A stretch of 31,831 bases of DNA from a virus, in the IMG/VR virus record IMGVR_UViG_3300032235_000476, positions 1 to 31,831 of that record; one strand, given 5' to 3'. Position numbers and translations under genes: made by a program. How positions within the stretch are numbered: position 1 is the stretch's first letter; the number at the start of each line of letters is the position of its first letter. A model generated the notes under the pieces. That model did no database searches, had not been told where the DNA came from, and was given only the letters and a program-made list of their open reading frames with translations. This document shows positions 8,714 to 28,225 of the stretch, piece by piece.

Positions 8714-9370
8714 ATGGTAGCTTGGGAAAAAGCCAAAGGCAAACAAACCACAGGAAATCAAAACAAAAGAGATATTGAGCGAGTAACGCTAGGTCTAGGT
8801 GACACAAAACTACGTTTAGTAGGCGATGTAATGCCTAGATACTGCTACTGGGTAGTCACAAAAGATGGTAAGAAAATGCCAGTAGAGTGCCTGCAGTTCG
8901 ATAGAGACACAGAAAGCTTCAATGCTAGTATCAAAGACCCATTCAAAGAAATTGATGCAGATGTTTATGCAGAAAAACCACAATTTGCATATGTTTGTAA
9001 TGTAATTGATCGTAAAGATAACAAAGTCAAACTACTTGATCTACGTTCTACTATTTACGCTCAAATTGTAGATTATGCCACAAATCCAGAATACGGTTCT
9101 CCCGCTGATTCAGAAAGCGGCTATGATCTAACACTGAAAAAAGAAAAAACTGGACCACTTCCTCAGAATGTGAAGTACACTGTTATTCCTGCTCGTAGTA
9201 GCAAGGCTTTAACAGAAGAAGAACGCGCTCTAGAACTATATGATCTGTCTAAAATCTTTAAGCGTCAGACTTATGATGAGCAAAAGCAATGGTTGCTAGA
9301 AAATACAACACTATTTGCAGGCGATGCTAGCAATGAGTTTAAACCTGAAGGCGTTGATGATCTAGCATGA
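8714..9370 (+). CDS. Single-stranded DNA-binding protein (gp32-like)
   Basis: The protein has 218 residues with a strong ribosome site (AAGGAG, 9 bases before the ATG). The basic, flexible N-terminus (WEKAKGK...NQNKRD) is followed by a beta-rich core (VTLGLGDTKLRLVGDVMPRYCYW, then a WVVTKDGKKMPVEC stretch) that fits an OB-fold. The C-terminus ends acidic (FKPEGVDDLA), as in gp32 and SSB where the tail recruits partners. The cysteines do not form an obvious zinc site. Codons are better adapted than in its neighbours, fitting high expression. The assignment rests on layout and context rather than a diagnostic motif. Confidence 0.7.
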   Translation: MVAWEKAKGKQTTGNQNKRDIERVTLGLGDTKLRLVGDVMPRYCYWVVTKDGKKMPVECLQFDRDTESFNASIKDPFKEIDADVYAEKPQFAYVCNVIDRKDNKVKLLDLRSTIYAQIVDYATNPEYGSPADSESGYDLTLKKEKTGPLPQNVKYTVIPARSSKALTEEERALELYDLSKIFKRQTYDEQKQWLLENTTLFAGDASNEFKPEGVDDLA

Positions 9371-10188
9371 AAAAGTCTTTATCTGAACTAGCCAATAAAA
9401 CTGTAGATAATACATCAACAGAGGAGGCTCCTAAGACAAAGAGTTTTGGTGCTTTTAAACAGATCAACGGTACTCAAGCTGTAATAGATTTAGACGTACT
9501 AAGAAAATATAATATTTTCTTTGCTACTCCTTGTTATGGCGGAATGCTTACAGATCAATTTTTTCTAAGTATGTTTCGTGTATCGCAAGTACTGATGCAA
9601 CATGGTATTAACTTTAGAATTACTACTCTTCGTAATGAAAGTCTGATTTCTAGAGCTAGAAATATACTTACTGCTATGTTTTTAGATAGCGACTGTACCC
9701 ATTTAATGTTTATTGACTCTGACATTGAGTTTCAACCAGAAGACATTTTACGGGCACTAGCATACGATAAACCAGTAATTGCTGGTGCATATCCAAAAAA
9801 AGCACTACCTGTGCAGTATGCTATTAATTTTAAATTCGTAAATCCAGAAACTAGGCAGATCAGAGTTGAGAACGGAGCCGTTGAAGTACTAGACGCTTCT
9901 ACTGGATTCTTCATGGTCAAGCGAGAGACTGTTGAAAAAATGATATCAGCTCATCCCGAGCTTCATTATCGTAATGACTCTAATATTGATCCAAAACTCA
10001 ACAAATACTGCTATGCTCTATTTGATACTATGATTGATCCTGATGACAATCGTTATTTGTCAGAAGATTATACTTTCTGCAGACGTTGGCAAAAAATGGG
10101 TGGAGAAATTTGGTTAGATCCTAATACTAAACTAAACCACGTAGGTAGCTATACCTTCGAAGGTGATGTAAGTAAGATTATAGGATAA
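9367..10188 (+). CDS. GT-A-fold glycosyltransferase-like protein
   Basis: The protein has 273 residues. After a 45-residue variable N-terminus, IFFATPCYGG starts a Rossmann-like GT-A core. MFIDSDIEF carries the D117-S-D119 (DxD) metal and nucleotide-sugar site, and EDYTFCRRW near the C-terminus resembles the ED catalytic-base motif of family 2-like transferases. A G-x-Y-P-K-K segment follows the DxD strand. It shares ATGA with the SSB gene and is followed by a methyltransferase, an odd pair inside a replication operon. Substrate is unknown; modified DNA bases, the host envelope or virion proteins are all possible. Confidence 0.8.
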   Translation: MKKSLSELANKTVDNTSTEEAPKTKSFGAFKQINGTQAVIDLDVLRKYNIFFATPCYGGMLTDQFFLSMFRVSQVLMQHGINFRITTLRNESLISRARNILTAMFLDSDCTHLMFIDSDIEFQPEDILRALAYDKPVIAGAYPKKALPVQYAINFKFVNPETRQIRVENGAVEVLDASTGFFMVKRETVEKMISAHPELHYRNDSNIDPKLNKYCYALFDTMIDPDDNRYLSEDYTFCRRWQKMGGEIWLDPNTKLNHVGSYTFEGDVSKIIG

Positions 10189-10192
10189 AGCC

Positions 10193-10891
10193 GTGTATAG
10201 ATTCTCTGAAGAACTAGAACATAAAAATTTCAAAGACAAAAACAGAGTAGACTCGATTGATACGTACTGGGATGATGACTATGATTTAGCTGATCCTGGT
10301 GGTTGGGAGCATAGACATACTCACGAAGCTGAGATAATATCACAAGTTATATCTCAGCTTGGTATCAAAAAAGTACTAGAACTAGGATCAGGTCCTGGTA
10401 ACTTAGCTACTAAGATCATTGATAAGACTAATGTTGATTATACTTTAGTAGATGGTGATAGTGCGCTTCGTGCTCATGCTAAAAGAGGAAATAAAGGTAA
10501 ATTACTAGTAATTGATCTATTTGATTCTTTTGACACCAGTAACTTAGATAATGATTATGATCTGATCGTAGCTAATGACTTTCTAGAACATATTAGGAAT
10601 CCTAGTCTTATTCTAGAAAAAGTAAGAAATGATCTAACTACAGATACATCTTACTTTTTTCTTTCTTCACCAAACTGGAGAATGAAGCATCAGTTTTACT
10701 ATCCTGGTCTTTTTGACTATGATAATCTAGTAAAATTTATGATACAAGAAGGCTATAAATTACACTATGTCTTTGACTCTTGGGCAAATCATGTACCTGT
10801 ACGTGCGCCTAGACTGAGTAGTGAATCTTCTCTACCAGAAGGTCATATTTTTGACTGGAATCATTACTTGTTATTTAAAAAAGAAGTATAA
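10193..10891 (+). CDS. Class I SAM-dependent methyltransferase
   Basis: The protein has 232 residues and uses a GTG start with AGGA 8 bases upstream. Motif I is VLELGSGPGN at residues 61-70, then LVDGD (acidic end of strand 2) and DLIVANDFLEHI (motif II/post-II), the UbiE/Methyltransf_11-like arrangement. The C-terminal region is aromatic (FYYPGLFDYDNLVKFM) and may form the acceptor pocket. It directly follows the glycosyltransferase and may methylate the same product. It is the last gene before the structured gap at 10892. Confidence 0.85.
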   Translation: MYRFSEELEHKNFKDKNRVDSIDTYWDDDYDLADPGGWEHRHTHEAEIISQVISQLGIKKVLELGSGPGNLATKIIDKTNVDYTLVDGDSALRAHAKRGNKGKLLVIDLFDSFDTSNLDNDYDLIVANDFLEHIRNPSLILEKVRNDLTTDTSYFFLSSPNWRMKHQFYYPGLFDYDNLVKFMIQEGYKLHYVFDSWANHVPVRAPRLSSESSLPEGHIFDWNHYLLFKKEV

Positions 10892-14010: not shown

Positions 14011-16134
14011 ATGCTAACAATTGGAAAACATCCAATTCTATTTCAATTTAAAAAAGACTTTAGAGAACGTCTACTGAACACACCAGTAGATTGGGGATAT
14101 GGCGGATTATCTGCTTTTACTTATTATCGCACTTATTCACGTAAAAAAGCAAACGGTAAACTAGAAACATGGCAAGAGTGTGTAGTTCGTGTTATTGAGG
14201 GTATGTTCTCAATCTTAAAAACACACGCTATTACATCTGAACATACTTGGAATGAGAAGCGTGCTCACAAGCTAGCAGAAGAAGCTGCAGAGCGTCTATT
14301 AGCTTTCAAGTGGACTCCTCCAGGTCGTGGACTATGGATGATGGGTACTCCTTTCGTATATGAAAAAGGCGGAGCTTGTCTAAACAACTGTGGATTCGTA
14401 TCTACAGAAAACATTGATGCAGAAATGTCTAAACCATTCGCATTTCTAATGGATATGAGCATGGTCGGCGTTGGTATCGGATTTGATACTAAAGGAGCTG
14501 GTAAAGTTGCAGCATATGTTCCAGAAGGTGATCCAGAAGTAATTACTGTAGAAGATTCACGTGAAGGCTGGGTTGAATTAATTTCTTGTTTAATTGACTC
14601 TTATCTAGAAGAAGGATCTACTCCTGTAGAGCCAGATACAAGCTTAGTACGTGCTTATGGAGAGCCTATTCACGGATTTGGTGGTGTAGCTTCAGGGCCA
14701 GAACCGCTAGTACAAGGCTTCTATGGTATCAAAGATATTCTAGAAAAGCGTGCGCTAAGCGAAAACCCACTACTAACTTCTGTAGACATTACTGATATTA
14801 TGAATATTATCGGTAAGATTGTTGTAGCTGGTAACGTTCGTCGTACTGCAGAAATTGCGTTTGGCGAGCCAGAAGATGAAGAGTTTGCGAATATGAAAAA
14901 CTGGGAACAGTTTGGAGTAGAAACAGGCTCAACTGCTCCACACGAGCTAGAACTAGTCAACGCAGATGATTATGCAGAGTACAATAACAACTGGGATGCT
15001 CGTTCAAAGATTGCTCGTAAGTACACTTCCGAAGATTGGGCTTATAAGTTTGGCGGATGGCGTTGGGCTTCAAATAACTCTATTTTTGCTCGTGTAGGCA
15101 TGGATTATACTGAAGTAGCTAAAAAAGTTGCTTCTAATGGTGAGCCAGGATTTGCTTGGTTAGAAACTATGCAAGCATATGGTCGTATGAAAGACCCAGC
15201 TGACCATAAAGACTATCGTGTTCGTGGCGGTAATCCGTGCTTAGAACAGTCTCTAGAACCTTATGAACTATGCTGTTTAGTTGAATCATTCCCTGCAAAG
15301 CACGATGATTATTGGGACTATCAGCGTACTCTAAAATTTGCTTATCTGTACGCAAAAACAGTTACTCTAGTACCAACTCACTGGAAAGAAACTAATGACG
15401 TTATTAAGCGTAATCGTCGTATTGGTACTTCTCAGAGCGGTATTCAGGAAGCTATTCTTAAGTTTGGTCGCAAAAAGTATCTAGAGCAGTTCTGTGACCA
15501 AGCATATAACTATATTAACTATCTAGATAAAAAGTATAGCGAGTGGTTAGGTGTTCCACTATCTATTAAAAAGACTAGTGTTAAACCTAGTGGCACAGTA
15601 TCTCTAGTAGCTGGAGCACTACCAGGTATTCATTATGCTAAAGCAGAAAGCTACTATCGCTTAATTCGTGTAGCAAATACTTCTAATCTACTACCTATTC
15701 TACGTGCAGCTAATTACCGTATTGAAGATTCTATCACTGACCCGCTAAAAACCAGCGTAGTCTATTTTCCAGTAACTCACGCTCCTGGTACTATTAGCGA
15801 TAAGGATGTATCTATATGGGAACAGTTTGCAAACGCAGTAGATCTACAACACTACTGGGCTGATAACCAAGTATCTATTACTATCTCTTTCCAGGAGCAC
15901 GAAAAGAATCAAATTGCTCGCGCTCTTAGCTGCTTTGACAATAAGCTAAAAGGCGTAAGCTTACTTCCTCTAACTGATCATGGTTATGCGCAAGCACCAT
16001 ATACTCAGGCTCCTAGAGAAGAAGTTCTAGCTTACTCAGAACAACTATTACCTCTGGACTTTAGCAGCTTAACTCATGAAGGTGAGAATGCAGATGCTAA
16101 TAAGTTCTGCGACGGTGACGCTTGCTTGATCTAA
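14011..16134 (+). CDS. nrdJ: Class II cobalamin-dependent ribonucleotide reductase
   Basis: The 707-residue protein resembles monomeric adenosylcobalamin-dependent RNR such as Lactobacillus leichmannii RTPR. PPGRGLWMMGT precedes an N-terminal Cys pair region (C123, C127). NPCLEQ holds the putative thiyl-radical Cys C410, followed by C421/C422. The C-terminus carries a redox pair C700 and C705. It reduces ribonucleotides to deoxyribonucleotides for phage replication without oxygen or a second subunit, but needs cobalamin from the host. A strong AAGGAG site precedes the ATG. Glutaredoxin, dUTPase and ThyX genes nearby complete a dNTP set. No intein or split is seen. Confidence 0.92.
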   Translation: MLTIGKHPILFQFKKDFRERLLNTPVDWGYGGLSAFTYYRTYSRKKANGKLETWQECVVRVIEGMFSILKTHAITSEHTWNEKRAHKLAEEAAERLLAFKWTPPGRGLWMMGTPFVYEKGGACLNNCGFVSTENIDAEMSKPFAFLMDMSMVGVGIGFDTKGAGKVAAYVPEGDPEVITVEDSREGWVELISCLIDSYLEEGSTPVEPDTSLVRAYGEPIHGFGGVASGPEPLVQGFYGIKDILEKRALSENPLLTSVDITDIMNIIGKIVVAGNVRRTAEIAFGEPEDEEFANMKNWEQFGVETGSTAPHELELVNADDYAEYNNNWDARSKIARKYTSEDWAYKFGGWRWASNNSIFARVGMDYTEVAKKVASNGEPGFAWLETMQAYGRMKDPADHKDYRVRGGNPCLEQSLEPYELCCLVESFPAKHDDYWDYQRTLKFAYLYAKTVTLVPTHWKETNDVIKRNRRIGTSQSGIQEAILKFGRKKYLEQFCDQAYNYINYLDKKYSEWLGVPLSIKKTSVKPSGTVSLVAGALPGIHYAKAESYYRLIRVANTSNLLPILRAANYRIEDSITDPLKTSVVYFPVTHAPGTISDKDVSIWEQFANAVDLQHYWADNQVSITISFQEHEKNQIARALSCFDNKLKGVSLLPLTDHGYAQAPYTQAPREEVLAYSEQLLPLDFSSLTHEGENADANKFCDGDACLI

Positions 16135-16694
16135 GCAGCCCTTGTATAAAACTATGCAGGCTCCATAACGGAGTCTGCATAGGCTGTAGAAGAACTCAAG
16201 ATGAGATTAGAGAGTGGTACTATGGCGATAGTAATATTAGACAAAAGATACTAGATAGGATAAGTATGAAAGTTAGATTTGTAAAAGACCATGAAGATGC
16301 ACAGCTACCAACTTATGGAACAGCTGGAGCTGCTGGTGCAGATGTTTATAGCGTCAAAGAGTATAAAATAGGCCCTGGTCAGCATGTACTAGTAGATACT
16401 GGATTAAAATGCGATATACCAGAAGGATTTGAACTACAAGTTAGACCTCGTTCAGGTATAGCACTAAAGAATAAAATTACTGTACTTAATAGTCCAGGTA
16501 CTATTGATAGTGATTATACAGGCAAGCTTGGAGTTATTCTTATGAATCACTCAGATGAGATTTTTTCTGTAAAACCAGGTGATAGAATTGCACAAATAGT
16601 GGTAGCACCTGTAGTACAAGCTACCTTTGCTTGGGTAGAAGATACAAAGAGTACAGAACGTGGTTCTGACGGCTTTGGCTCTACAGGAGTTTAA
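16122..16694 (+). CDS. dut: DUF1289-dUTPase fusion
   Basis: The 190-residue reading frame starts at TTG 16122, overlapping nrdJ by 13 bases. Residues 5-46 match the small DUF1289 domain: SPCIKLC and CIGC give C8, C12, C19, C22, then RTQDEIREW. Residues 50-190 are a trimeric dUTPase with all five motifs: GAAGADVYS 69-77, RPRSG 108-112, GTIDSDYTG 126-134, GDRIAQIV 153-160 and RGSDGFGSTG 180-189. It hydrolyses dUTP to dUMP, the ThyX substrate. An in-frame ATG at 16266 with AGGA before it could also yield dUTPase alone, so the fusion may be full-length, internally initiated, or both. DUF1289 function is unknown; its cysteines suggest metal binding. Confidence 0.88.
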   Translation: MLDLSSPCIKLCRLHNGVCIGCRRTQDEIREWYYGDSNIRQKILDRISMKVRFVKDHEDAQLPTYGTAGAAGADVYSVKEYKIGPGQHVLVDTGLKCDIPEGFELQVRPRSGIALKNKITVLNSPGTIDSDYTGKLGVILMNHSDEIFSVKPGDRIAQIVVAPVVQATFAWVEDTKSTERGSDGFGSTGV

Positions 16695-16695
16695 T

Positions 16696-16923
16696 ATGCA
16701 AGCTATTGTGTGGTCAACTAGCACTTGTAGCTTCTGTAAACAAGCAAAAACTCTATTAGAAAAACATAATATTCCTTATGAAGAACGTCTCATTGGTGAT
16801 AATTGGACCAAAGAGCAACTTTTAGAAGTAGTACCCAACGCACGTACTGTTCCTCAAATTTTTATTGATGAAAATTACGTAGGCGGTTATACTGATTTAG
16901 TGAGCTATTTAAACAGCCCATAA
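16696..16923 (+). CDS. Glutaredoxin
   Basis: The 75-residue thioredoxin-fold protein has the active site CSFC at residues 11-14, the cis-Pro loop TVPQIF and the glutathione-contact GGY motif near the C-terminus. The start is ATG 16696, one base after the dUTPase stop, with AGGAG upstream inside the dUTPase end. A longer upstream reading in the same frame is not needed. It probably re-reduces the C-terminal cysteines of NrdJ. Length is typical of compact phage and bacterial glutaredoxins. Confidence 0.93.
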   Translation: MQAIVWSTSTCSFCKQAKTLLEKHNIPYEERLIGDNWTKEQLLEVVPNARTVPQIFIDENYVGGYTDLVSYLNSP

Positions 16924-16935
16924 GAAGGAATATTA

Positions 16936-17655
16936 ATGACTAGAAATACAGCTAAACAAAAGCCGCGAGTAGTTGCGGAACAAGGCTATCGTAAGATTAG
17001 AATTGATGATTTACTAACTTTTGAGCCTATTACTGAGAATCAGCACAAAGCTAAAAAAGCTTATAGCAGAGATAGAAATCTAATGCTTAAAGGTTATCCA
17101 GGAACTGGAAAAACGTTTTTAGCATTATTGTTTGCTCTTCAAGAAGTGTTAGACCCTTCTTCTGATTATAAGCGTGTTGCTATAATTCGTTCAGTAGTAC
17201 CTACCAGAGATATCGGCTTCTTAAAGGGAGACGATAAAGAAAAGATAGCTGTATATGAAACTCCTTACAGAGATATCTGTGAGGAGCTTTTTAATATAAA
17301 AGGTGCTTATGATATACTAAAAGCACAAGGAACTATTATATTTGATACAACATCATTTATACGTGGTAGAAGTTTACATAACACTATATTCATTGTTGAT
17401 GAGTGTGAGAACCTTAATTTTCATGAACTAGACAGTGTTATTACTCGCGTAGGCAACTATAGTAAAATTATATACTGTGGAGATCACGGACAAACAGATT
17501 TTACTAAAGAAGGCGATAAAATAGGATTAATTAACTTTAGCCGTATTCTAAAAGAAATGGATAACTTCACATTCGTTGATTTTGGAATAGACGACATTGT
17601 TAGAAGTGCGCTAGTTAAATCCTATATTATAGCAAAAGATAGATTAGGATTTTAA
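16936..17655 (+). CDS. phoH: PhoH-like ATPase
   Basis: The 239-residue P-loop protein has Walker A GYPGTGKT at residues 53-60 and Walker B IFIVDE at D155/E156, followed by the PhoH-typical CENLN and later ITRVGNYSKIIYCGD. The fold is that of PhoH/helicase superfamily 1-like ATPases, common in marine phages. Its role there is unresolved; RNA metabolism and phosphate-stress links have been proposed. A good ribosome site (AAGGAA) precedes it. It sits between dNTP-metabolism and nuclease genes. Confidence 0.92.
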   Translation: MTRNTAKQKPRVVAEQGYRKIRIDDLLTFEPITENQHKAKKAYSRDRNLMLKGYPGTGKTFLALLFALQEVLDPSSDYKRVAIIRSVVPTRDIGFLKGDDKEKIAVYETPYRDICEELFNIKGAYDILKAQGTIIFDTTSFIRGRSLHNTIFIVDECENLNFHELDSVITRVGNYSKIIYCGDHGQTDFTKEGDKIGLINFSRILKEMDNFTFVDFGIDDIVRSALVKSYIIAKDRLGF

Positions 17656-19976: not shown

Positions 19977-20170
19977 GGTTTTTCAGTACGAACACGCTGT
20001 AAAAGAGGATTTTTAACTTCTTTTACGACTAGCTTATCACCTTCACGGTAGTATGTTTTAGTAGCAGCATCGACTTTTGGGTCATAAGCTTCACGCATAC
20101 CGTAACGGTTGTCACCAATCTTTATTGTTGTACCGTTGCGAGTGTCAACACCAGAAAGTGACTTTGCCAT
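19973..20170 (-). CDS. Small protein of unknown function
   Basis: The product has 65 residues, is basic, and holds a likely beta-rich core (GTTIKIGDNRYGMREAYD, then KLVVKEVKNPLL). It follows the 111-residue gene by one base and is coupled to the lysine-rich miniprotein by ATGA. No motif is recognised. Its position next to structural-type genes suggests a minor virion or morphogenesis protein. Confidence 0.65.
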   Translation of the reverse strand: MAKSLSGVDTRNGTTIKIGDNRYGMREAYDPKVDAATKTYYREGDKLVVKEVKNPLLQRVRTEKP

Positions 20171-20171
20171 T

Positions 20172-20507
20172 TTACTTCATGTCCTTAATAACACGTCCGC
20201 CCATGCCACGAGTTACGTCTTCGTTAGCAACAGATACTGCCCCACTTGCGCCACCACGATTACCCGCTTTAGTAAATGAACGGCTATGACTTACGTCACC
20301 CATCATTACATCTCCTTGGTTAATGTAGCCGTCAGCACTTTTAAGTACTTTATTTGGGCTTGCTTTACCTGCAGGACGAGAATCGTTAGAACCTTCAAAA
20401 GATGTACGTTGTGTTCCACCCATTGGAGTAGTAGGAGCTGTTTTAGCATTTTTTACTAGTTTAAGATCTTCTGTGATCCCAGTGACTTCTTTTTTAATCA
20501 TTGCCAT
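20172..20507 (-). CDS. Low-complexity protein of unknown function
   Basis: The protein has 111 residues, rich in Gly, Ser, Thr and Lys, with a short helical start (KEVTGITEDLKLVKNAK). A long disordered part includes GGTQRTSFEGSNDS and a GNRGGASG stretch. It has AAGGAG 10 bases before the ATG; a second ATG two codons on is also possible. Such composition is common in small virion or scaffold-like phage proteins. Function is not recognisable. Confidence 0.65.
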   Translation of the reverse strand: MAMIKKEVTGITEDLKLVKNAKTAPTTPMGGTQRTSFEGSNDSRPAGKASPNKVLKSADGYINQGDVMMGDVSHSRSFTKAGNRGGASGAVSVANEDVTRGMGGRVIKDMK

Positions 20508-21836: not shown

Positions 21837-22295
21837 TTATAAGTAACTAGATTCACAAGCTGTGTTATAATAAGCTGCAAAAAATCGCTCAGAACCAGTT
21901 TCTTTGTTATTTATTGTTTTTCCCGGTTTATATATTAATAGTTTTGATAATAAATCTATTACTATGTGATTTACAGTACAACGTAGGTATATTACTCCGT
22001 TTTGTTTGGTAACTCTTAATATTTCTAACAGTTGTTCTTCGCACAGTGTGCGATCTTCGGAAAATACCCCAAAACACAATACTTTATCAAAAGTAGCTGT
22101 TTCAAAAGGTAAATCGACTATATCAGCTAATATATCTGCTTCTGTAGATGCAATATCTACTCCTATAATAGTAGGGTTAAATATTTTATATAAGTTCTCA
22201 CCACAACCAGCGTCTAGTATTATACCGCTCTGCAAGTCGCTAAGTAACGATCTTCCGGTCTCTTCGTACCTATTAAGTCTTTTAACTATCTGCAT
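21837..22295 (-). CDS. Short SAM-dependent methyltransferase
   Basis: The protein has 152 residues with motif I ILDAGCGE at 27-34, IGVDIAS at the end of strand 2 and VDLPFETATFDKVLCFGVF as motif II. This is the Methyltransf_11 pattern. It lacks the usual last part of the domain and is shorter than family members (about 200-250), so the acceptor site may be reduced. It ends the modification island and overlaps kdsB by 14 bases. O-methylation of the sugar product is the simplest inference. Confidence 0.8.
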   Translation of the reverse strand: MQIVKRLNRYEETGRSLLSDLQSGIILDAGCGENLYKIFNPTIIGVDIASTEADILADIVDLPFETATFDKVLCFGVFSEDRTLCEEQLLEILRVTKQNGVIYLRCTVNHIVIDLLSKLLIYKPGKTINNKETGSERFFAAYYNTACESSYL

Positions 22296-22998
22296 TAATA
22301 AACCTACTTAAAACATATTGATAATCAGCTTCTACATCTACAGGAATACTGTCTATATCTTCTCTATACGTTGCTATATAGATTCCTGCTACTAGCGCCC
22401 TTAATAATTCCACACCTTCTACAGTTTCTAAAGCAGTAATATGATGATTTTTAAAAATGCTTAACGCTCGTCGTGTAAAACTTATTATACATAGTTGTTT
22501 TTTTAAAGGAATTTCTCCTCTAAAATTGCTAGGGCAAGTACTACGTGTTAAATATAATACTCTATTATTTTCTTCAACTACTTTTACTCTATTTATATCA
22601 TCTTCATATAATAGCTGATACGGCATAACGATTTCGCTGTTTAGTGTTTTTGTCTGTTTTATGAGATTATAAATAACTTCTGGGTCCAATAAGGGCTCAT
22701 CGCCTTGAATATCAACAATAATAGAATCTTCTGGTAAATTTAATAATTCAGCTGCTTCTGCTATTCTATCAGTACCATTTACATGGCTACTAGTTTTGAT
22801 AGTATTTATTCCATAGCTAGAACAAATTTCTATTATTTTATCAGAATCAGTACACACATACACGGCAGTTAGTTCTGCACACTTTAGTGCTTGTTGCGCT
22901 ACTTTTACTATCATAGGCACTCCGTCTATAGGTAAAAGTAGTTTTTCTTTTAAACGAGTGCTTTCAAGCCTCGCTGGTATTAATCCATAAATCTGCAT
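22282..22998 (-). CDS. kdsB: CMP-Kdo synthetase-like cytidylyltransferase
   Basis: The 238-residue protein is close to the length of KdsB (about 250). IPARLESTRLKEKLLLPIDG carries the nucleotide-binding R10, R15 and K19. GTDR at 75-78 and QGDEPL at 98-103 with D100 are the KdsB signatures. It would activate Kdo, or a related 2-keto acid sugar such as 8-amino-Kdo, to the CMP form using CTP. It overlaps the radical SAM gene by 35 bases. A KpsC/KpsS-like gene, whose family uses CMP-Kdo, lies in the same operon at 25799. Confidence 0.88.
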   Translation of the reverse strand: MQIYGLIPARLESTRLKEKLLLPIDGVPMIVKVAQQALKCAELTAVYVCTDSDKIIEICSSYGINTIKTSSHVNGTDRIAEAAELLNLPEDSIIVDIQGDEPLLDPEVIYNLIKQTKTLNSEIVMPYQLLYEDDINRVKVVEENNRVLYLTRSTCPSNFRGEIPLKKQLCIISFTRRALSIFKNHHITALETVEGVELLRALVAGIYIATYREDIDSIPVDVEADYQYVLSRFINADS

Positions 22999-23782
22999 AT
23001 TGTTTTCCCATTAAAGTGCCTACTACGCTACAATTTTTACACGAATCACTAACATTTCTATTGCCCAAGATTAACTGTTTACGAATAGCAGTAAATTCAT
23101 CACTCATCCATATATAGTTAAGATCTTGTTTTAATATGTTTCCAAATCTTTTTGATTTTTTCCAATCATTATAACATAATAGTACGTCTCCATTACTATC
23201 TATTATAGCTCTATAGGCTGGAATATAGCATGGATTTATTCTAGTTTCAGACCACAACAACCCACCTCTATTATTAAATCCATATGTTTCAAAGTTATCT
23301 TGTCCATTATCATAGTTATCACGTATATGAATATTTGTAGCAGCTAACTTTTGTATATTAGGATTATTGTCATAGTCATTAATTATAAGTCTAGTAAGTC
23401 CTGCATTAAAAAAATTGAATATACTATACTTATTAGATAATATTGTATCGCCGTTAGTAATCATTTCTACTGTGAATACTGATAGTATATTTATTATTTG
23501 TAGAATATTTGGATGTAATGTTGGCTCACTAAAACCGCTTAGTATTATATACCCAGTAAAGCTGTTAGCTTGCAGCTGCGATACTAGCGTTTGTACAGTT
23601 TCTAAAGCTATATGCGTATTCAAATTTTGATATAGCTTAGGATCGTGCCGAGGACAGAAACTACAGGTTCTATTACACAGCTCCGTAAGATTTATCTCAA
23701 CTGCTGCTAAACCAAGCAGCTTAGTGTTGTTAATATTACCAAAACTAGCACGTCTAAACTCGAGATGTTGTTCTAAATTCAT
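22964..23782 (-). CDS. Radical SAM enzyme with SPASM-like C-terminus
   Basis: The protein has 272 residues. LCNRTCSFCP provides C36, C40 and C43 for the SAM-binding 4Fe-4S cluster, followed by LSGFSEPTLHP (the GGE/GEP region), a TNGD motif and a TIM-barrel-like order. The C-terminal part CYIPAYRAIIDSNGDVLLC and SDSCKNCSVVG resembles a SPASM/twitch auxiliary-cluster domain. Substrate is unknown: sugar-nucleotide chemistry fits the island, but SPASM enzymes often act on peptides. It overlaps both neighbours, with ATGA at its start. No maturase partner peptide is apparent. Confidence 0.87.
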   Translation of the reverse strand: MNLEQHLEFRRASFGNINNTKLLGLAAVEINLTELCNRTCSFCPRHDPKLYQNLNTHIALETVQTLVSQLQANSFTGYIILSGFSEPTLHPNILQIINILSVFTVEMITNGDTILSNKYSIFNFFNAGLTRLIINDYDNNPNIQKLAATNIHIRDNYDNGQDNFETYGFNNRGGLLWSETRINPCYIPAYRAIIDSNGDVLLCYNDWKKSKRFGNILKQDLNYIWMSDEFTAIRKQLILGNRNVSDSCKNCSVVGTLMGKQYADLWINTSEA

Positions 23783-24651
23783 AGTAATTCTTTATTTATT
23801 AGTGCCATACGATACATATTATTTACTAGTCGATAACCGAACTTATCTGTTAACTTATTGGCTTTTTTAAATAATACATAATTGCCGATACTAGGCTCTG
23901 TAGGATAATTATTCTCTAAATATTGCTTAGTTTTCAACATTCGATTAATCACTGCTGGTGTGTGATGTATTAATTCTTGTGTTATTGTAGGTGCTAGAGA
24001 GTTACATACAAAGTTTGATCTGTATTCTTGTAGCTTAGCAGTAATTGTTTCAGATGCAAAAGCAAAACCTACTCGAAGTCCTGCTAGTCCTAAACTCTTA
24101 CTTAGTGTTTTTACAATAATTACGTTATCAGGTAAGCAATTGATCATAGAATTAGCTCTATAAAAATCTGCGTAAGATTCATCTATTATACACAACTTAT
24201 AGTTTTTACTGATACTAGTTAAATCTATACTATATCCTAATAACCCGTTAGGATTTGCTATATATAATACTTCATTTTTATCTGAATGTAGTAAATCAAG
24301 TGGTATAGATTTATATTCTTTATTGTACAGCCTGCAGTAGATTTCAACCATCTCAAAAGTAGGAGTTACTATACTTATATGTGTAAACGATAATGCTTTA
24401 AAAATACGTTCAAGTATCTCAGTTGCTCCGTAACCTATAGTAGTTTTATTTATAGGTTGGTTGTAATAGCTACAAATAGCATTATATAGCATAAAAGTAT
24501 CTGGATAACTACTTAAATTGATTTTAGTAGCAATCTGCTGAGCTGCTTTAACTATAAAAGCATCGTAATGAACATTTTTAGATAGATCAATTACAGGGAC
24601 ATCCTGATATTTAATATCTGGACGAGAAACTAGTACTTCTAAGTTTATCAT
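23779..24651 (-). CDS. HisC-like PLP-dependent aminotransferase
   Basis: The 290-residue fold-type I aminotransferase has GYGATEIL, the IANPNG loop (N133/N135), IIDESYADF with D157, and the pyridoxal-binding lysine K185 in TLSKSLGLAGLRVG with R193. This is the histidinol-phosphate aminotransferase-like subgroup. It is about 60 residues shorter than HisC, mainly at the ends. No other histidine genes are near, so an amino-sugar or amino-acid ligand role is more likely than histidine synthesis. The start overlaps the sulfotransferase gene by 41 bases. Confidence 0.83.
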   Translation of the reverse strand: MINLEVLVSRPDIKYQDVPVIDLSKNVHYDAFIVKAAQQIATKINLSSYPDTFMLYNAICSYYNQPINKTTIGYGATEILERIFKALSFTHISIVTPTFEMVEIYCRLYNKEYKSIPLDLLHSDKNEVLYIANPNGLLGYSIDLTSISKNYKLCIIDESYADFYRANSMINCLPDNVIIVKTLSKSLGLAGLRVGFAFASETITAKLQEYRSNFVCNSLAPTITQELIHHTPAVINRMLKTKQYLENNYPTEPSIGNYVLFKKANKLTDKFGYRLVNNMYRMALINKELL

Positions 24652-25258
24652 ATAGTATTATATCTTTCTCATAATAATTGCTAACAAGCTTAATAAGTGG
24701 CTTAGTATAAAATCGAGGTACTAATTCTTTTGTATCAGCGTTAGAAGACTTATTTATATATTTTAAGTTAGTAACCTCTTGATTAAAGTGTATTTTCCAA
24801 AAAAGTGCTAAATCTTCTGATATAGTATCGTACAATAACAGCGTAGAATTAGTATTTATAAAGTCTGTTTGTAATAAGTTCTGCCACGTATGATCTAGTA
24901 TAGTACCATTACCGTCTGAGACTAACTTATGAAAACTAGCAACAGACAGCTCGTGAACACCTTGTTTACATCTATATATAAATAAACTTAATAGCCGCTC
25001 AAGAGGATTTCTTATTATACAAAAACTGCTTGTGTTTTGTGGCACTATACCTAAACTAATAGCTTCATCTATAGTGATGTGGGATAGTGAGCTATCTGTT
25101 GTACAGTTTTGGCTTATAAAAGTATCACCATAGGTAGTGTGTGTTACTACGTCTTTACTACTTAGTATATTAGAATCAAGTATAACTCTAGCAATCGCAG
25201 TACTAGCATTTTTAGGTATTTTTATAAAAGCTAAATTATAAGATGATAAATATATCAT
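24611..25258 (-). CDS. Carbohydrate sulfotransferase-like protein
   Basis: The protein has 215 residues. FIKIPKNAST at 11-20 is the 5'-phosphosulfate-binding loop of PAPS-dependent sulfotransferases (family Sulfotransfer_2 type), and CIIRNPLERLLSLF at 80-93 is the 3'-phosphate site with R83. It would transfer sulfate from host PAPS to a hydroxyl or amino group, probably on a glycan. No signal peptide is present, so it acts in the cytoplasm. It joins the oxygenase upstream by ATGA and overlaps the aminotransferase. Confidence 0.85.
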   Translation of the reverse strand: MIYLSSYNLAFIKIPKNASTAIARVILDSNILSSKDVVTHTTYGDTFISQNCTTDSSLSHITIDEAISLGIVPQNTSSFCIIRNPLERLLSLFIYRCKQGVHELSVASFHKLVSDGNGTILDHTWQNLLQTDFINTNSTLLLYDTISEDLALFWKIHFNQEVTNLKYINKSSNADTKELVPRFYTKPLIKLVSNYYEKDIILYDKLRSTSFSSRY

Positions 25259-25818
25259 TCTGGTATATAGTTAGCACCTGTTGGATGCCTGGTTAGCCAA
25301 TGATTAATAGTGATTCTATAAGTACCAGCGCTTTCAAATGAATGCCAAGTAACATTATCTATCGGAGCAAATATAAGAGTTTTGTTTTCAGCCCACGTAG
25401 CAGTACTTACATACTCTTTATTGCTATTGTACAGTAAAGTGCCTATAGCTTGTCTAGGTGCTATGTACGTAACAGCAGATAGCACTTTCCACGGTGCTTC
25501 ATCGTGTATTTTATAAGAAAAGTCCCCTAAACAAATACTAATATCATAAAAATTGTATAAAGAAGTATAACGTCTATGATTACTAAAATGTTTAAGTAAA
25601 TCGGAATCTATTTTTGCAGATTCTGCAAAAGCGCTGGTAGCAGGAAACCTAACTTTAAAGTTTTCTTCTTGGCTTCTAATAACAGTACGATGTGACAAAT
25701 TATTAATATTAGTAGATATATATTTAATTAATTCTGATCTACAAGCTGAATAAAGTGTAGGGTCAAAATAATCTTGGATTTCTAAGTGAGGCCAAGGATT
25801 AGTTTGTAAAGTAGTCAT
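25255..25818 (-). CDS. 2OG-Fe(II) oxygenase-like protein
   Basis: The protein has 187 residues. YKIHDEAPWKVLSAVTYIAP gives H105 followed by D106/E107, a likely metal facial triad start (HxE form). WHSF gives H159, and YRITINHW gives R168, which would bind 2-oxoglutarate. Core beta strands (GTLLYN, TLIFAPIDNVTWHS) fit the double-stranded beta-helix. It would hydroxylate or otherwise oxidise an unknown substrate. The HDE spelling instead of HxD leaves activity uncertain. It overlaps the transferase gene by 20 bases. Confidence 0.72.
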   Translation of the reverse strand: MTTLQTNPWPHLEIQDYFDPTLYSACRSELIKYISTNINNLSHRTVIRSQEENFKVRFPATSAFAESAKIDSDLLKHFSNHRRYTSLYNFYDISICLGDFSYKIHDEAPWKVLSAVTYIAPRQAIGTLLYNSNKEYVSTATWAENKTLIFAPIDNVTWHSFESAGTYRITINHWLTRHPTGANYIPE

Positions 25819-26695
25819 CTATATTGCACTTCTTATTAAAATATTTATCAAAGCGTTGATATAAAGTATATGTATAATCTGTACTAACATCTATTATAAC
25901 TTTATTATAAAACCAGGATAAATATTGATATATATCTTGTTGAGGCATTTTTTTAAATAGCACTGTATCTATGTCATGTAAGTTACTGCAGTAATTAGCA
26001 ATAGCACCATAAGAATAGTCTATATCATTTCTGAGATAGGTAACTGGCTTATCTTTTAAAAGCGCGTACATACCAACACCAGACTCAGCAGTTACTAAAG
26101 CACTACAATTATCTACTAACATATTAGTATTTATATCTACGTGTAGTTCTACATACTCAGACTTATTATTAATATATTGCCACTGCTCAAGTGGATCAGA
26201 GTTATCTGGTGGAAAAGGGTGTGCTTTAAAAAGTACTTTATGTTTATTGTGTTTAGCCCACAAACACATATGCTCTATTAATAATAACTCATTACTCATA
26301 TCATTCAAGACAACTAAGATATATGGCGAATCAGGAGCGTATAGATTAGTATTGGCTTTGTACTTATTATAATCAACATTTAGTAAATATTCAATAGTAT
26401 CACTACTTGTGGCATGGCTAAGCCAGTAAGGTTTATAACTAAAATCACGAATTAAGTATTCTTCAGGACTTAGCTTAAAAAAATAAAATACTGGAGTCCC
26501 TTCGCCATAACTAAGATAACGACCGACACCAGTATTATAATAATAATTAAGTTTTCCTGTAAAGCTATTGGATATACTATGCACGCTATCCATAAAATGT
26601 TTTATGTGTTTAGCATTTATCCATTTTTCTCGCTGAGAATTGCGCTGTAAACACCAGTGATAGTGATCAATGCATTGAGTTAAATCCAAAGGCAA
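25799..26695 (-). CDS. KpsC/KpsS-like capsule-type (Kdo) glycosyltransferase
   Basis: The protein has 298 residues from a TTG start with a very strong GGAGG site 8-9 bases upstream; no ATG fits. VLFKAHPFPPDN with K157-H159-P160 and TAESGVGMYALLKDKPV at 202-218 match the nucleotide-sugar half of capsule polysaccharide export/synthesis proteins (KpsC/KpsS/WcbO family). In that family these proteins build the poly-Kdo linker from CMP-Kdo. With kdsB in the same operon, a Kdo transfer role is a reasoned inference. It overlaps the upstream gene by 29 bases. A less specific GT-B transferase is the alternative. Confidence 0.78.
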   Translation of the reverse strand: MPLDLTQCIDHYHWCLQRNSQREKWINAKHIKHFMDSVHSISNSFTGKLNYYYNTGVGRYLSYGEGTPVFYFFKLSPEEYLIRDFSYKPYWLSHATSSDTIEYLLNVDYNKYKANTNLYAPDSPYILVVLNDMSNELLLIEHMCLWAKHNKHKVLFKAHPFPPDNSDPLEQWQYINNKSEYVELHVDINTNMLVDNCSALVTAESGVGMYALLKDKPVTYLRNDIDYSYGAIANYCSNLHDIDTVLFKKMPQQDIYQYLSWFYNKVIIDVSTDYTYTLYQRFDKYFNKKCNIDDYFTN

Positions 26696-27164
26696 AACGA
26701 TAGCCCTCCGACCAAATTGCGTGCCATAAAGGCTGTTGTTTATCTATTTTAAAGCTTCTAGCAGTCCAGCCAATACTATCTTCATCATTGTGTATTAAAC
26801 CAGTTTCTGGATTTTTATATCTAAATATGCTACGGCGTTTAGAATATACATAGTATGTTCTGATACCTTCTAAATCAGAATTAGTATGCCAAGGCATAGA
26901 CGAGTATGGAGCGTAACAAATAGCATTTGTACATGAATTTGCTCCTAGCAAACTAGTAGCAGTGCTTAGTCTAGCATCATTAAGTAAGCATATATGACGT
27001 ATACTATTATCAGAACGATGAGGTACATCATTTGCAGGTATTGCTGTAGCAATAAAATCATGATACTTTACGTTACCAGCTGCAGGAAGTGTATTAGACT
27101 GTAAATACTCAGATATTAGCTGTTCTAATATAGTAGTTACCGCTGTATTAATTGTTGTTTTCAT
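26667..27164 (-). CDS. Second 2OG-Fe(II)-like oxygenase (HTNS type)
   Basis: The protein has 165 residues from ATG 27164; a TTG two codons earlier is possible. YAPYSSMPWHTNSD, LEGIRTYYVYS, FRYKNPETG and LWHAIWSEGYRFAFGF define a phage family I recognise as 2OG-Fe(II)-like. Residues H93 and N95 (HxN in place of HxD) with H148 and R156 give the likely pocket. The Asn ligand makes catalysis uncertain. It overlaps a small tail-associated gene upstream by 17 bases and is the first gene of the island. Confidence 0.7.
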   Translation of the reverse strand: MKTTINTAVTTILEQLISEYLQSNTLPAAGNVKYHDFIATAIPANDVPHRSDNSIRHICLLNDARLSTATSLLGANSCTNAICYAPYSSMPWHTNSDLEGIRTYYVYSKRRSIFRYKNPETGLIHNDEDSIGWTARSFKIDKQQPLWHAIWSEGYRFAFGFNSMH

Positions 27165-27390
27165 TTTCAAGCATTGCTAAAATAGCATCAATCTCTTCAA
27201 TAGTTAGCTGTGCTATAGGAGCAACCTCTATACCAACATCAGTGCCTATGAACTTTCCGTTTTCATACCTATCACCTACTGAAACTGGATTGATGGCTAG
27301 CACGTAAGTGCTATCTGGGGGGATAAAACTATCAGTAGCTACAATAACGTTAACTACTATATTATTTTCTATAACTGCATATTTTTTCAT
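27148..27390 (-). CDS. Small tail-associated protein
   Basis: The 80-residue protein begins MKKYAVIENNIVVNVIVAT and contains VSVGDRYENGKFIG. This N-terminal beta-hairpin and DRYENGKF pattern is frequent in small phage tail-fibre-linked proteins. The C-terminus is an acidic helix (TIEEIDAILAML) ending in Asn and Glu. It lies one base after the glycine-rich adhesin stop and runs into the first island gene. I infer a tail-fibre accessory or assembly protein. Confidence 0.72.
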   Translation of the reverse strand: MKKYAVIENNIVVNVIVATDSFIPPDSTYVLAINPVSVGDRYENGKFIGTDVGIEVAPIAQLTIEEIDAILAMLENENNN

Positions 27391-27391
27391 A

Positions 27392-28225
27392 TCAATAAAA
27401 TATTATCACTGCTCCAGCTAATCCGCCTCCTGGAGGCGTTGTAGTCTGAGGAATCTGGGAGCCAAATCCTGCTGATCCACCAGATCCTGGCCTGTATATA
27501 TTAGCAATTGAATAAGCTGTACTTGTCGGATAGCCGCCAGAAGTAGTTGGAAAATTTGTAACTGAATTAACGTTTTTCATAATTGCAGTTGCATCTTTAG
27601 CTTGTCCAAAGGAGTTAGCATCAAGACTTACAAGAGGCCAAACAGCTCCTATATTACCATTTTGTATGTTACCTGTAGTGCTAGTACCAGAAATTCCAGG
27701 AGTTCCGTTAATATTATTATTGAGATCACCATTAGTACCGTTAGTGCCGCCAGTAGCGCTAATACCAAAAAAAGTACTAGTACCTGTAGCAGCTCCAATA
27801 GTTGCTGGCATGACATTGGCTGCTACAAGAGGTATAAAACTAGCAGCAGCTCCTCCCAGACCGCCAGCACCACCGCTGACAGTTCGTGGCGTATCTCCTC
27901 CTTGTCGACCGCCAGCACCGCCAGATCCACCACCTCCTACTACTATAACATAGCCTTTAGTAACATCAGTAGGCACAGTCCAACTACTAGTAGCACTAAT
28001 TACGGTAATACGTGTATATACGTTGTCACCTCTTACTAAACGAATAGTGGGGTCTGCAGAAGTAGTAATTCCGTTATCACCATCAAAGGTGACTCCACCT
28101 TTGATAGTTAATAGGCTACCGCTGTCTATTATTTGATCTGGTAAAAGTCCAGCAGTCTGAGAACGACTTAAAGTGTTCCCATCAAGCATCTGAGTACCAG
28201 TAGTAGAATTTATGCTTAGAGGCAT
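27392..28225 (-). CDS. Glycine-rich tail-tip adhesin candidate
   Basis: The protein has 277 residues. The N-terminal part (MPLSINSTTGTQMLDGNTL) is followed by a beta-rich stalk ending in SSWTVPTDVTKGYVIVVGGGGSGG. Glycine-rich blocks with spacers follow (GGAGGLGGAAASF; GPG-type RPGSGGSAGFGSQI) and the C-terminus is GGGLAGAVIIFY. This is the architecture of phage tip adhesins with polyglycine packing, of which the gp38 adhesins of T-even phages are the best known. Variable loops between Gly blocks would contact the receptor. Homology to gp38 is by layout only. Confidence 0.75.
   Translation of the reverse strand: MPLSINSTTGTQMLDGNTLSRSQTAGLLPDQIIDSGSLLTIKGGVTFDGDNGITTSADPTIRLVRGDNVYTRITVISATSSWTVPTDVTKGYVIVVGGGGSGGAGGRQGGDTPRTVSGGAGGLGGAAASFIPLVAANVMPATIGAATGTSTFFGISATGGTNGTNGDLNNNINGTPGISGTSTTGNIQNGNIGAVWPLVSLDANSFGQAKDATAIMKNVNSVTNFPTTSGGYPTSTAYSIANIYRPGSGGSAGFGSQIPQTTTPPGGGLAGAVIIFY

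Follow-up and report, generated by a model that had tools for sequence, protein, structure and literature searches.

The subject of this analysis is an island of eight genes in an uncultured tailed phage, the IMG/VR virus record IMGVR_UViG_3300032235_000476, which was analyzed over its entire length of 31,831 bases and is called the window here. Plus-strand replication genes, among them a polymerase (about 40% identity to T5-like phages), helicases, ribonucleotide reductase, and PhoH, occupy the left two thirds of the window, and minus-strand virion genes the right third, from about position 20,000. Eight intact minus-strand open reading frames (ORFs) lie among the latter at 21837-27170, each of which overlaps its neighbor by 4-41 bases (Table 1). 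A preliminary description had placed eight overlapping minus-strand genes here, in one operon between a tail adhesin and small virion genes. This arrangement is supported, with all eight frames present and intact, on the same strand as the tail genes, and with no minus-strand terminator-like site between the adhesin and the methyltransferase (MT) gene that closes the island. The first ORF, read from a TTG start, begins at 27170, and an in-frame ATG lies two codons inside, at 27164, the position given as the end of the island in the preliminary description. Promoter-like sites were fewer than in shuffled sequences and are not used as evidence. The contigs are metagenomic, and the family names given to the enzymes are predictions.

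Table 1. Predicted genes of the island and of its upstream neighbors, with the basis of each assignment (aa, amino acids; PLP, pyridoxal phosphate; AF2, AlphaFold2)
Feature	Position in window	Strand	Basis
Glycine-rich tail adhesin (proposed acceptor)	27392..28225	-	tail matches PHROG 863 and 2683
80-aa protein between adhesin and OG1, 23-base overlap with OG1	27148..27390	-	phrog_14370
OG1, 2-oxoglutarate (2OG)-Fe(II) oxygenase-fold protein, 167 aa, probable ATG start 27164	26667..27170	-	ORF, AF2 model, Foldseek
Capsule-synthesis-type glycosyltransferase (GT), PF05159-like	25799..26695	-	Pfam, motif alignment, weak PDB profile matches
OG2, second putative 2OG-Fe(II) oxygenase	25255..25818	-	motif, similarity to annotated phage 2OG oxygenase
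3'-Phosphoadenosine-5'-phosphosulfate (PAPS)-dependent sulfotransferase (ST), PF03567 type	24611..25258	-	Pfam, PHROG 3347, motifs
HisC/CobD-like PLP aminotransferase, short form, 290 aa	23779..24651	-	PF00155, TIGR01141, alignment
BtrN-type radical S-adenosylmethionine (SAM) enzyme (rSAM)	22964..23782	-	PDB 4m7s/4m7t match, residue mapping
Cytidine monophosphate (CMP)-3-deoxy-D-manno-octulosonic acid (Kdo)-synthetase (KdsB)-like cytidylyltransferase	22282..22998	-	NF003952, PDB KdsB matches, alignment
Small SAM-dependent methyltransferase (MT), 152 aa, LDAGCG motif	21837..22295	-	PF13847/PF08241

The radical SAM enzyme, which had been labeled radical SAM/SPASM-like, can now be described more exactly as BtrN-type. 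Pfam SPASM matches it at 53.9 bits, and BtrN (4m7s/4m7t) is its sole significant solved relative in the PDB (E = 7.6e-24). Its SAM-cluster cysteines C36/C40/C43 align with C16/20/23 of BtrN in a CX3CX2C motif, and its auxiliary-cluster cysteines C185/C203/C248/C251 with C169/187/232/235; all seven fall at cluster-ligand positions of BtrN and are spaced identically inside each of the two groups, and Arg152 has its counterpart in R172. BtrN oxidizes an aminocyclitol alcohol to a ketone (PMC9012708). The ketone left by a BtrN-type step is a natural preparation for a PLP aminotransferase, and a HisC-like gene adjoins that of rSAM. The product of this gene matches PF00155 at 66.2 bits and keeps the putative PLP lysine, K185, in the motif TLSKSLGLAG, in agreement with its earlier label; at 104.4 bits against an equivalog cut-off of 276.55 for TIGR01141, it does not reach the score of a HisC equivalog. 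In a tree the phage rSAM sequences group together on long branches, which settles neither the donor nor a single origin. A prokaryotic viperin was considered for rSAM and rejected (NF038283 at 23.3 versus a cut-off of 180; PADLOC 30 bits), the BtrN match being far stronger, and other defense models were likewise rejected.

The KdsB-like protein scores 194.7 bits with the subfamily model NCBIfam NF003952 (cut-off 193) and has PDB matches to KdsB, but it stays under the cut-offs of TIGR00466 (121.6 versus 155.2) and NF003948. K19, D100 (in QGDEP), and D221 are invariant in the alignment, and probably correspond to the catalytic K19/D95/D219 of A. aeolicus KdsB (PMC3149649). The transferase that would use the activated product passes PF05159 by a small distance (21.8 bits versus 20), with 28.8 bits for its homologue in contig L010, and PDB profiles give weak matches to WbbB and KpsC (E = 0.27-0.81). 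Its K-x-H-P motif (KAHP, residues 157-160) is kept in 7 of 11 phage homologues and contains the HP motif shared with CMP-sugar transferases, while S205 is invariant. Comparing profiles of the phage GT and a 446-aa SAR11 protein gave no significant match (probability 0.84%). The labels of the sulfotransferase and the methyltransferase hold. The former matches PF03567 at 33.9 bits (cut-off 22) and PHROG 3347 and carries IPKNAS and IRNPLERLLS, which we take to be the two PAPS-binding loops; a PDB profile search with it returned nothing usable. The methyltransferase exceeds the cut-offs of both PF13847 and PF08241.

Neither OG1 nor OG2, the two proteins first described as 2OG-Fe(II)-like oxygenases, has a match in Pfam, and PDB profile searches with them gave nothing usable. 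The AF2 model of OG1, with a predicted local distance difference test (pLDDT) score of 83, has 2OG oxygenases as its top Foldseek matches (AlkB, HIF prolyl hydroxylase, and Ofd2; E = 2e-4), and in this model OG1 has the double-stranded beta-helix fold of the 2OG-Fe(II) oxygenases. Its motif reads W-H95-T-N97 ... H150 ... R158. The metal position is H-T-N in all nine aligned sequences instead of belonging to an HxD/E...H triad, a uniformity of WHTN that is in part an effect of the scan pattern used. OG2 has H105-D-E107 ... H159 ... R168, and an H-x-E or H-x-D followed by H and R is kept in nine relatives from phages and SAR11. It also resembles an annotated 2OG oxygenase of cyanophage S-SCSM2R, and can be regarded as a putative second 2OG-Fe(II) oxygenase. 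The first label, 2OG-Fe(II)-like oxygenase, is supported by fold for OG1 and by motif for OG2, and is weakened for OG1 by the lack of the usual HxD ligand motif.

Conservation of the island is clearest in L007, an 80-kb contig in which all eight genes are intact and follow one another in the same order with 58-79% identity to those of the window. Another contig, L006, carries the last four island genes and then ends. Between the window and L007, the ratio of nonsynonymous to synonymous substitution rates (dN/dS) is 0.10-0.35 for all eight genes, at dS values of 0.9-1.9 that are like those of the flanking genes. Chance ORFs are therefore excluded, and the cassette has been retained since the window and L007 split rather than having arrived recently. 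Even the junctions are preserved: from the 80-aa gene to MT, six of eight overlaps are exactly equal in L007. Recent gain might be suspected from the low GC content of the cassette (0.30-0.35), but this idea was dropped, since GC at third positions resembles the rest and dS agrees with that of the flanks.

The place of the cassette among the tail genes was compared in loci that carry the flanking gene g111, by what lies between p28225 and the acidic protein. In L010, this slot holds an adhesin, a small gene, diverged OG1-GT-OG2-ST genes (29-39% identity), and then a GT8-like gene that replaces HisC-rSAM-KdsB-MT. Three contigs that span the site (L009, L011, and L012) have neither adhesin nor cassette. 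In three others, an unrelated gene for a radical SAM protein of roughly 330 aa overlaps or abuts a tail-fibre-like gene in the slot (L014 4016-5005, L015 7687-8679, L016 7407-8393). Among the loci covering the site, adhesin and cassette come and go together. Judged by gene content, the cassette is a core (OG1-GT-OG2-ST) with an exchangeable module (HisC-rSAM-KdsB-MT). The idea of one fixed set of eight genes has to be given up, since in relatives a GT8-like gene, or a different radical SAM gene, takes the place of the module.

Scanning IMG/VR with an OG1 profile turned up relatives in 147 viral stretches, of which 80 were kept. The core occurs in order in six viral contigs, namely the window, L007, L010, L075, L076, and L077, so that the families do co-occur in phages other than the one first described. 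The copies vary: rSAM follows the core in L075, GT is doubled in L076 (OG1-GT-GT-OG2-ST), and L077 has OG1-GT-GT-GT-OG2-ST-ST and, at some distance beyond it, one more ST and an rSAM. Shorter forms are present in three more contigs, as OG1-GT-OG2 in L079/L080 and as OG1-GT-rSAM, near terminase and portal genes, in L072. L075 has several tail genes in common with the window. In L072, L077, and L079/L080, nothing else within the stretch compared resembles proteins of the window. Directly upstream of OG1, a glycine-rich tail protein and one small gene are found in the window, L007, L010, and L072. More generally, OG1 relatives usually have a small gene upstream with a larger protein before it, and tail-fibre and related tail families are the commonest PHROGs in 39 such larger proteins. 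The HisC-rSAM pair is found in seven cyanophage-like genomes, S-SCSM2R (near a long tail fibre gene) and six more viral contigs. The whole enzyme set was not seen in any of the 50,697 records of the phage collection that was searched, and tblastn of the phage collection with GT and ST gave no match.

Several observations concern the surroundings of the island. The flanking gene g111 (20172-20507) has an unusually low dS to L007, 0.23, where the other genes compared have 0.7-1.9; recombination or an overlapping element may be the cause. The PhoH-like and dUTPase-like genes (16122-17655) are mosaic, with PhoH 98% identical to L009, 64% to L007, and 63% to L006, and L006 just 48% identical at the dUTPase position. 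Other sugar-related genes are also present: at 9367-10891, inside the replication region of the window, a protein weakly similar to Anp1-type glycosyltransferases (phrog_1574) precedes a methyltransferase, and the L007 phage has a second glycan set of a hexapeptide transferase, a NAD-dependent epimerase, and glycosyltransferases (L031 16357-18708, L032 1411-3407).

Relatives of KdsB in cellular genomes led to surface-glycan loci of SAR11 with the arrangement rSAM-HisC-GT-SDR-KdsB-AroB (SDR, short-chain dehydrogenase/reductase), sometimes accompanied by OG2. A BtrN-like enzyme is encoded in 36 of 297 genomes of the SAR11 order. When wider neighborhoods are considered, an operon of the rSAM-HisC-KdsB-AroB type is present in L026, L030, L050, L051, and L052, with an OG2 homologue in L026, L030, and L052, and a HisC-less version in L053. 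KdsB lies close to rSAM in L054, L056, and L058-L061; in L057 the distance is 3 kb greater. The contig L030 comes from a metagenome-assembled genome labeled Euryarchaeota, possibly through a binning error, and its glycan operon is very similar to the SAR11 one. A further SAR11 locus (L065, 878-6216) combines BtrN-like and phage-type HisC genes with genes that, from reading the sequences, we labeled DAHP-synthase-like (DAHP, 3-deoxy-D-arabino-heptulosonate 7-phosphate), AroE-like, and a cytidylyltransferase-methyltransferase fusion; it possibly encodes a carbocyclic surface sugar pathway not known before. Because their partners in cellular loci are AroB-, AroE-, and DAHP-synthase-like, the acid activated by the island enzymes may be a carbocycle and not a true Kdo-type sugar. 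We infer that quinate-type acids, like Kdo, have a tertiary hydroxyl beside the carboxylate.

The preliminary description had suggested that the set could serve to synthesize an acidic sugar, activate it, transfer it, and decorate it. This is still the best reading of the predicted enzymes, with the difference that the product may be carbocyclic. The interpretation that we favor, and hold tentatively, is of a tailoring operon whose expression probably falls late, together with that of the tail genes, and which would make a CMP-activated, amino-bearing acidic sugar or cyclitol and attach it, most likely to the upstream tail adhesin. First, on an acidic sugar or carbocycle supplied by the host, the BtrN-type rSAM would oxidize a hydroxyl group to a ketone, which the HisC-like enzyme would transaminate to an amine. 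The KdsB-like enzyme would then activate the product with CTP, and the capsule-type GT would transfer it to the acceptor, where OG1 may have prepared the site. Finally, OG2, the sulfotransferase, and the methyltransferase would decorate it. The phage would benefit by a change in how it binds its receptor or by shielding of the adhesin. Timing, substrate, order of steps, acceptor, and benefit are all what we infer from the predicted genes and their arrangement. Virion surface and host envelope had both been named as possible targets, and we favor the adhesin because of the position in the tail operon, the co-variation with the adhesin, and the recurrence beside tail genes.

A number of points weigh against this interpretation. 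Accessory genes are often inserted in tail regions, so position alone is no proof of the target; the proteins upstream of OG1 in L075-L077 have no PHROG match. Late transcription is suggested only by strand and gene order. The HxN in place of HxD makes catalysis by OG1 uncertain. No sugar-forming or cyclase gene was recognized beside the island, which leaves the host or another phage locus as the source of the substrate. As for the transferase, an AF2 model built from three sequences reached a pLDDT of 37, and across 11 aligned phage homologues no conserved QXXXD was found, which is the nucleophile motif of the retaining beta-Kdo transferases KpsC/WbbB of GT107/GT99 (PMC10148158, PMC9587256). 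For this reason we call it a capsule-type GT and not KpsC. The KpsC/KpsS-like transferase once proposed is a relative at most.

The main rival would place the acceptor in the host. Here the operon would modify the envelope, lipopolysaccharide (LPS) or capsule, by adding the CMP-sugar made by the phage to host glycan in such a way that the adhesin no longer binds, resulting in superinfection exclusion or in the avoidance of adsorption to debris. The closest cellular co-occurrence of rSAM, HisC, KdsB, and OG2 is indeed in the SAR11 surface-polysaccharide loci, the GT is of capsule type, and the second set of the L007 phage, with its epimerase, hexapeptide transferase, and GTs, fits an envelope target too. 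However, no membrane transporter, ligase, or polymerase was recognized, and the site is in the tail operon rather than among the replication genes and co-varies with the adhesin in relatives. We consider envelope modification rather unlikely, yet a serious competitor. Synthesis of a free small molecule, aminocyclitol- or nucleotide-like and active inside the infected cell against, e.g., host enzymes, defense, or competitors, seems improbable. The BtrN type of rSAM comes from antibiotic biosynthesis and the 30-bit similarity to prokaryotic viperin models could be read in its favor, but NF038283 is far under its cut-off (23 versus 180) and the BtrN match much stronger, GT and ST point to a macromolecular acceptor, and in several phages the core is found without HisC and KdsB. 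It is very unlikely that the island is a captured fragment of a host polysaccharide locus carried as a passenger without selected function: its presence does vary among relatives, but two phages separated by a dS close to 1 or higher have every frame intact, with the dN/dS values given above, and the order of the core is kept across diverged phages. Least likely of all is hypermodification of DNA, in which the enzymes would produce a modified base or what decorates it. Known phage pathways of this kind do include radical SAM and PLP enzymes, but the island lies in a tail operon on the strand opposite to the replication genes, KdsB and sulfotransferases have no known role in such pathways, and the cellular relatives are in glycan loci.

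Phage-borne sugar genes are already known; what is new is the combination of an adhesin-linked core with exchangeable sugar-making modules. Neither the annotated phage collection nor the literature searched yielded a recurring, modular operon that is tied to an adhesin and combines BtrN-type alcohol-to-amine conversion with CTP activation, transfer, and sulfation. Parts of it have parallels. With butirosin biosynthesis, the island shares a BtrN-type enzyme (SAM-cluster motif, auxiliary-cluster cysteine spacing, and Arg152 equivalent) and its pairing with a PLP aminotransferase, by which an alcohol would be converted to a ketone and then transaminated; unlike in that pathway, the partner is HisC-like, no sugar-phosphate cyclase was recognized, and CTP activation and a GT follow. 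The group 2 capsule Kdo system (KdsB/KpsU with KpsC/KpsS) likewise pairs a KdsB-like enzyme with a PF05159-type HP-motif transferase, here in one operon, but the island KdsB falls below most cut-offs, its GT has no QXXXD, and aminating, oxidizing, sulfating, and methylating enzymes are added. The SAR11 operons (L026, L030, L050-L052) have homologous rSAM, HisC, KdsB, and in part OG2, whereas the phage island is without SDR and AroB, has its own GT, OG1, ST, and MT, and carries a HisC that groups with the L065 type. In S-SCSM2R, HisC and rSAM are adjacent in the same order near a long tail fibre gene, with KdsB and OG2-like genes elsewhere; in contrast to the island, these genes are split over two loci, and the OG1-GT-ST core was not found in the two regions examined. 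Finally, multi-enzyme radical SAM modules exchangeable between close relatives have been reported in Campylobacter phages CP220/CPt10, although these have five radical SAM genes and an amidinotransferase, no recognized KdsB, GT, or sulfotransferase, and no known function (PMC2853527).

It is possible, if doubtful, that enzymatic modification of adhesins extends to diverse phages, with OG1 hydroxylating the adhesin and plug-in enzymes adding a sulfated, methylated, CMP-derived amino-acidic sugar or cyclitol, so that receptor binding would vary by chemistry as well as by sequence. Our literature search on adhesin hydroxylation or sulfation in phages found nothing relevant. If adhesins are indeed decorated, the host range and neutralization of phages would depend on chemistry that is invisible to sequence-based models of adhesins. 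The island also offers a test system for the uncharacterized rSAM-HisC-KdsB-AroB operon of SAR11 surface glycans.

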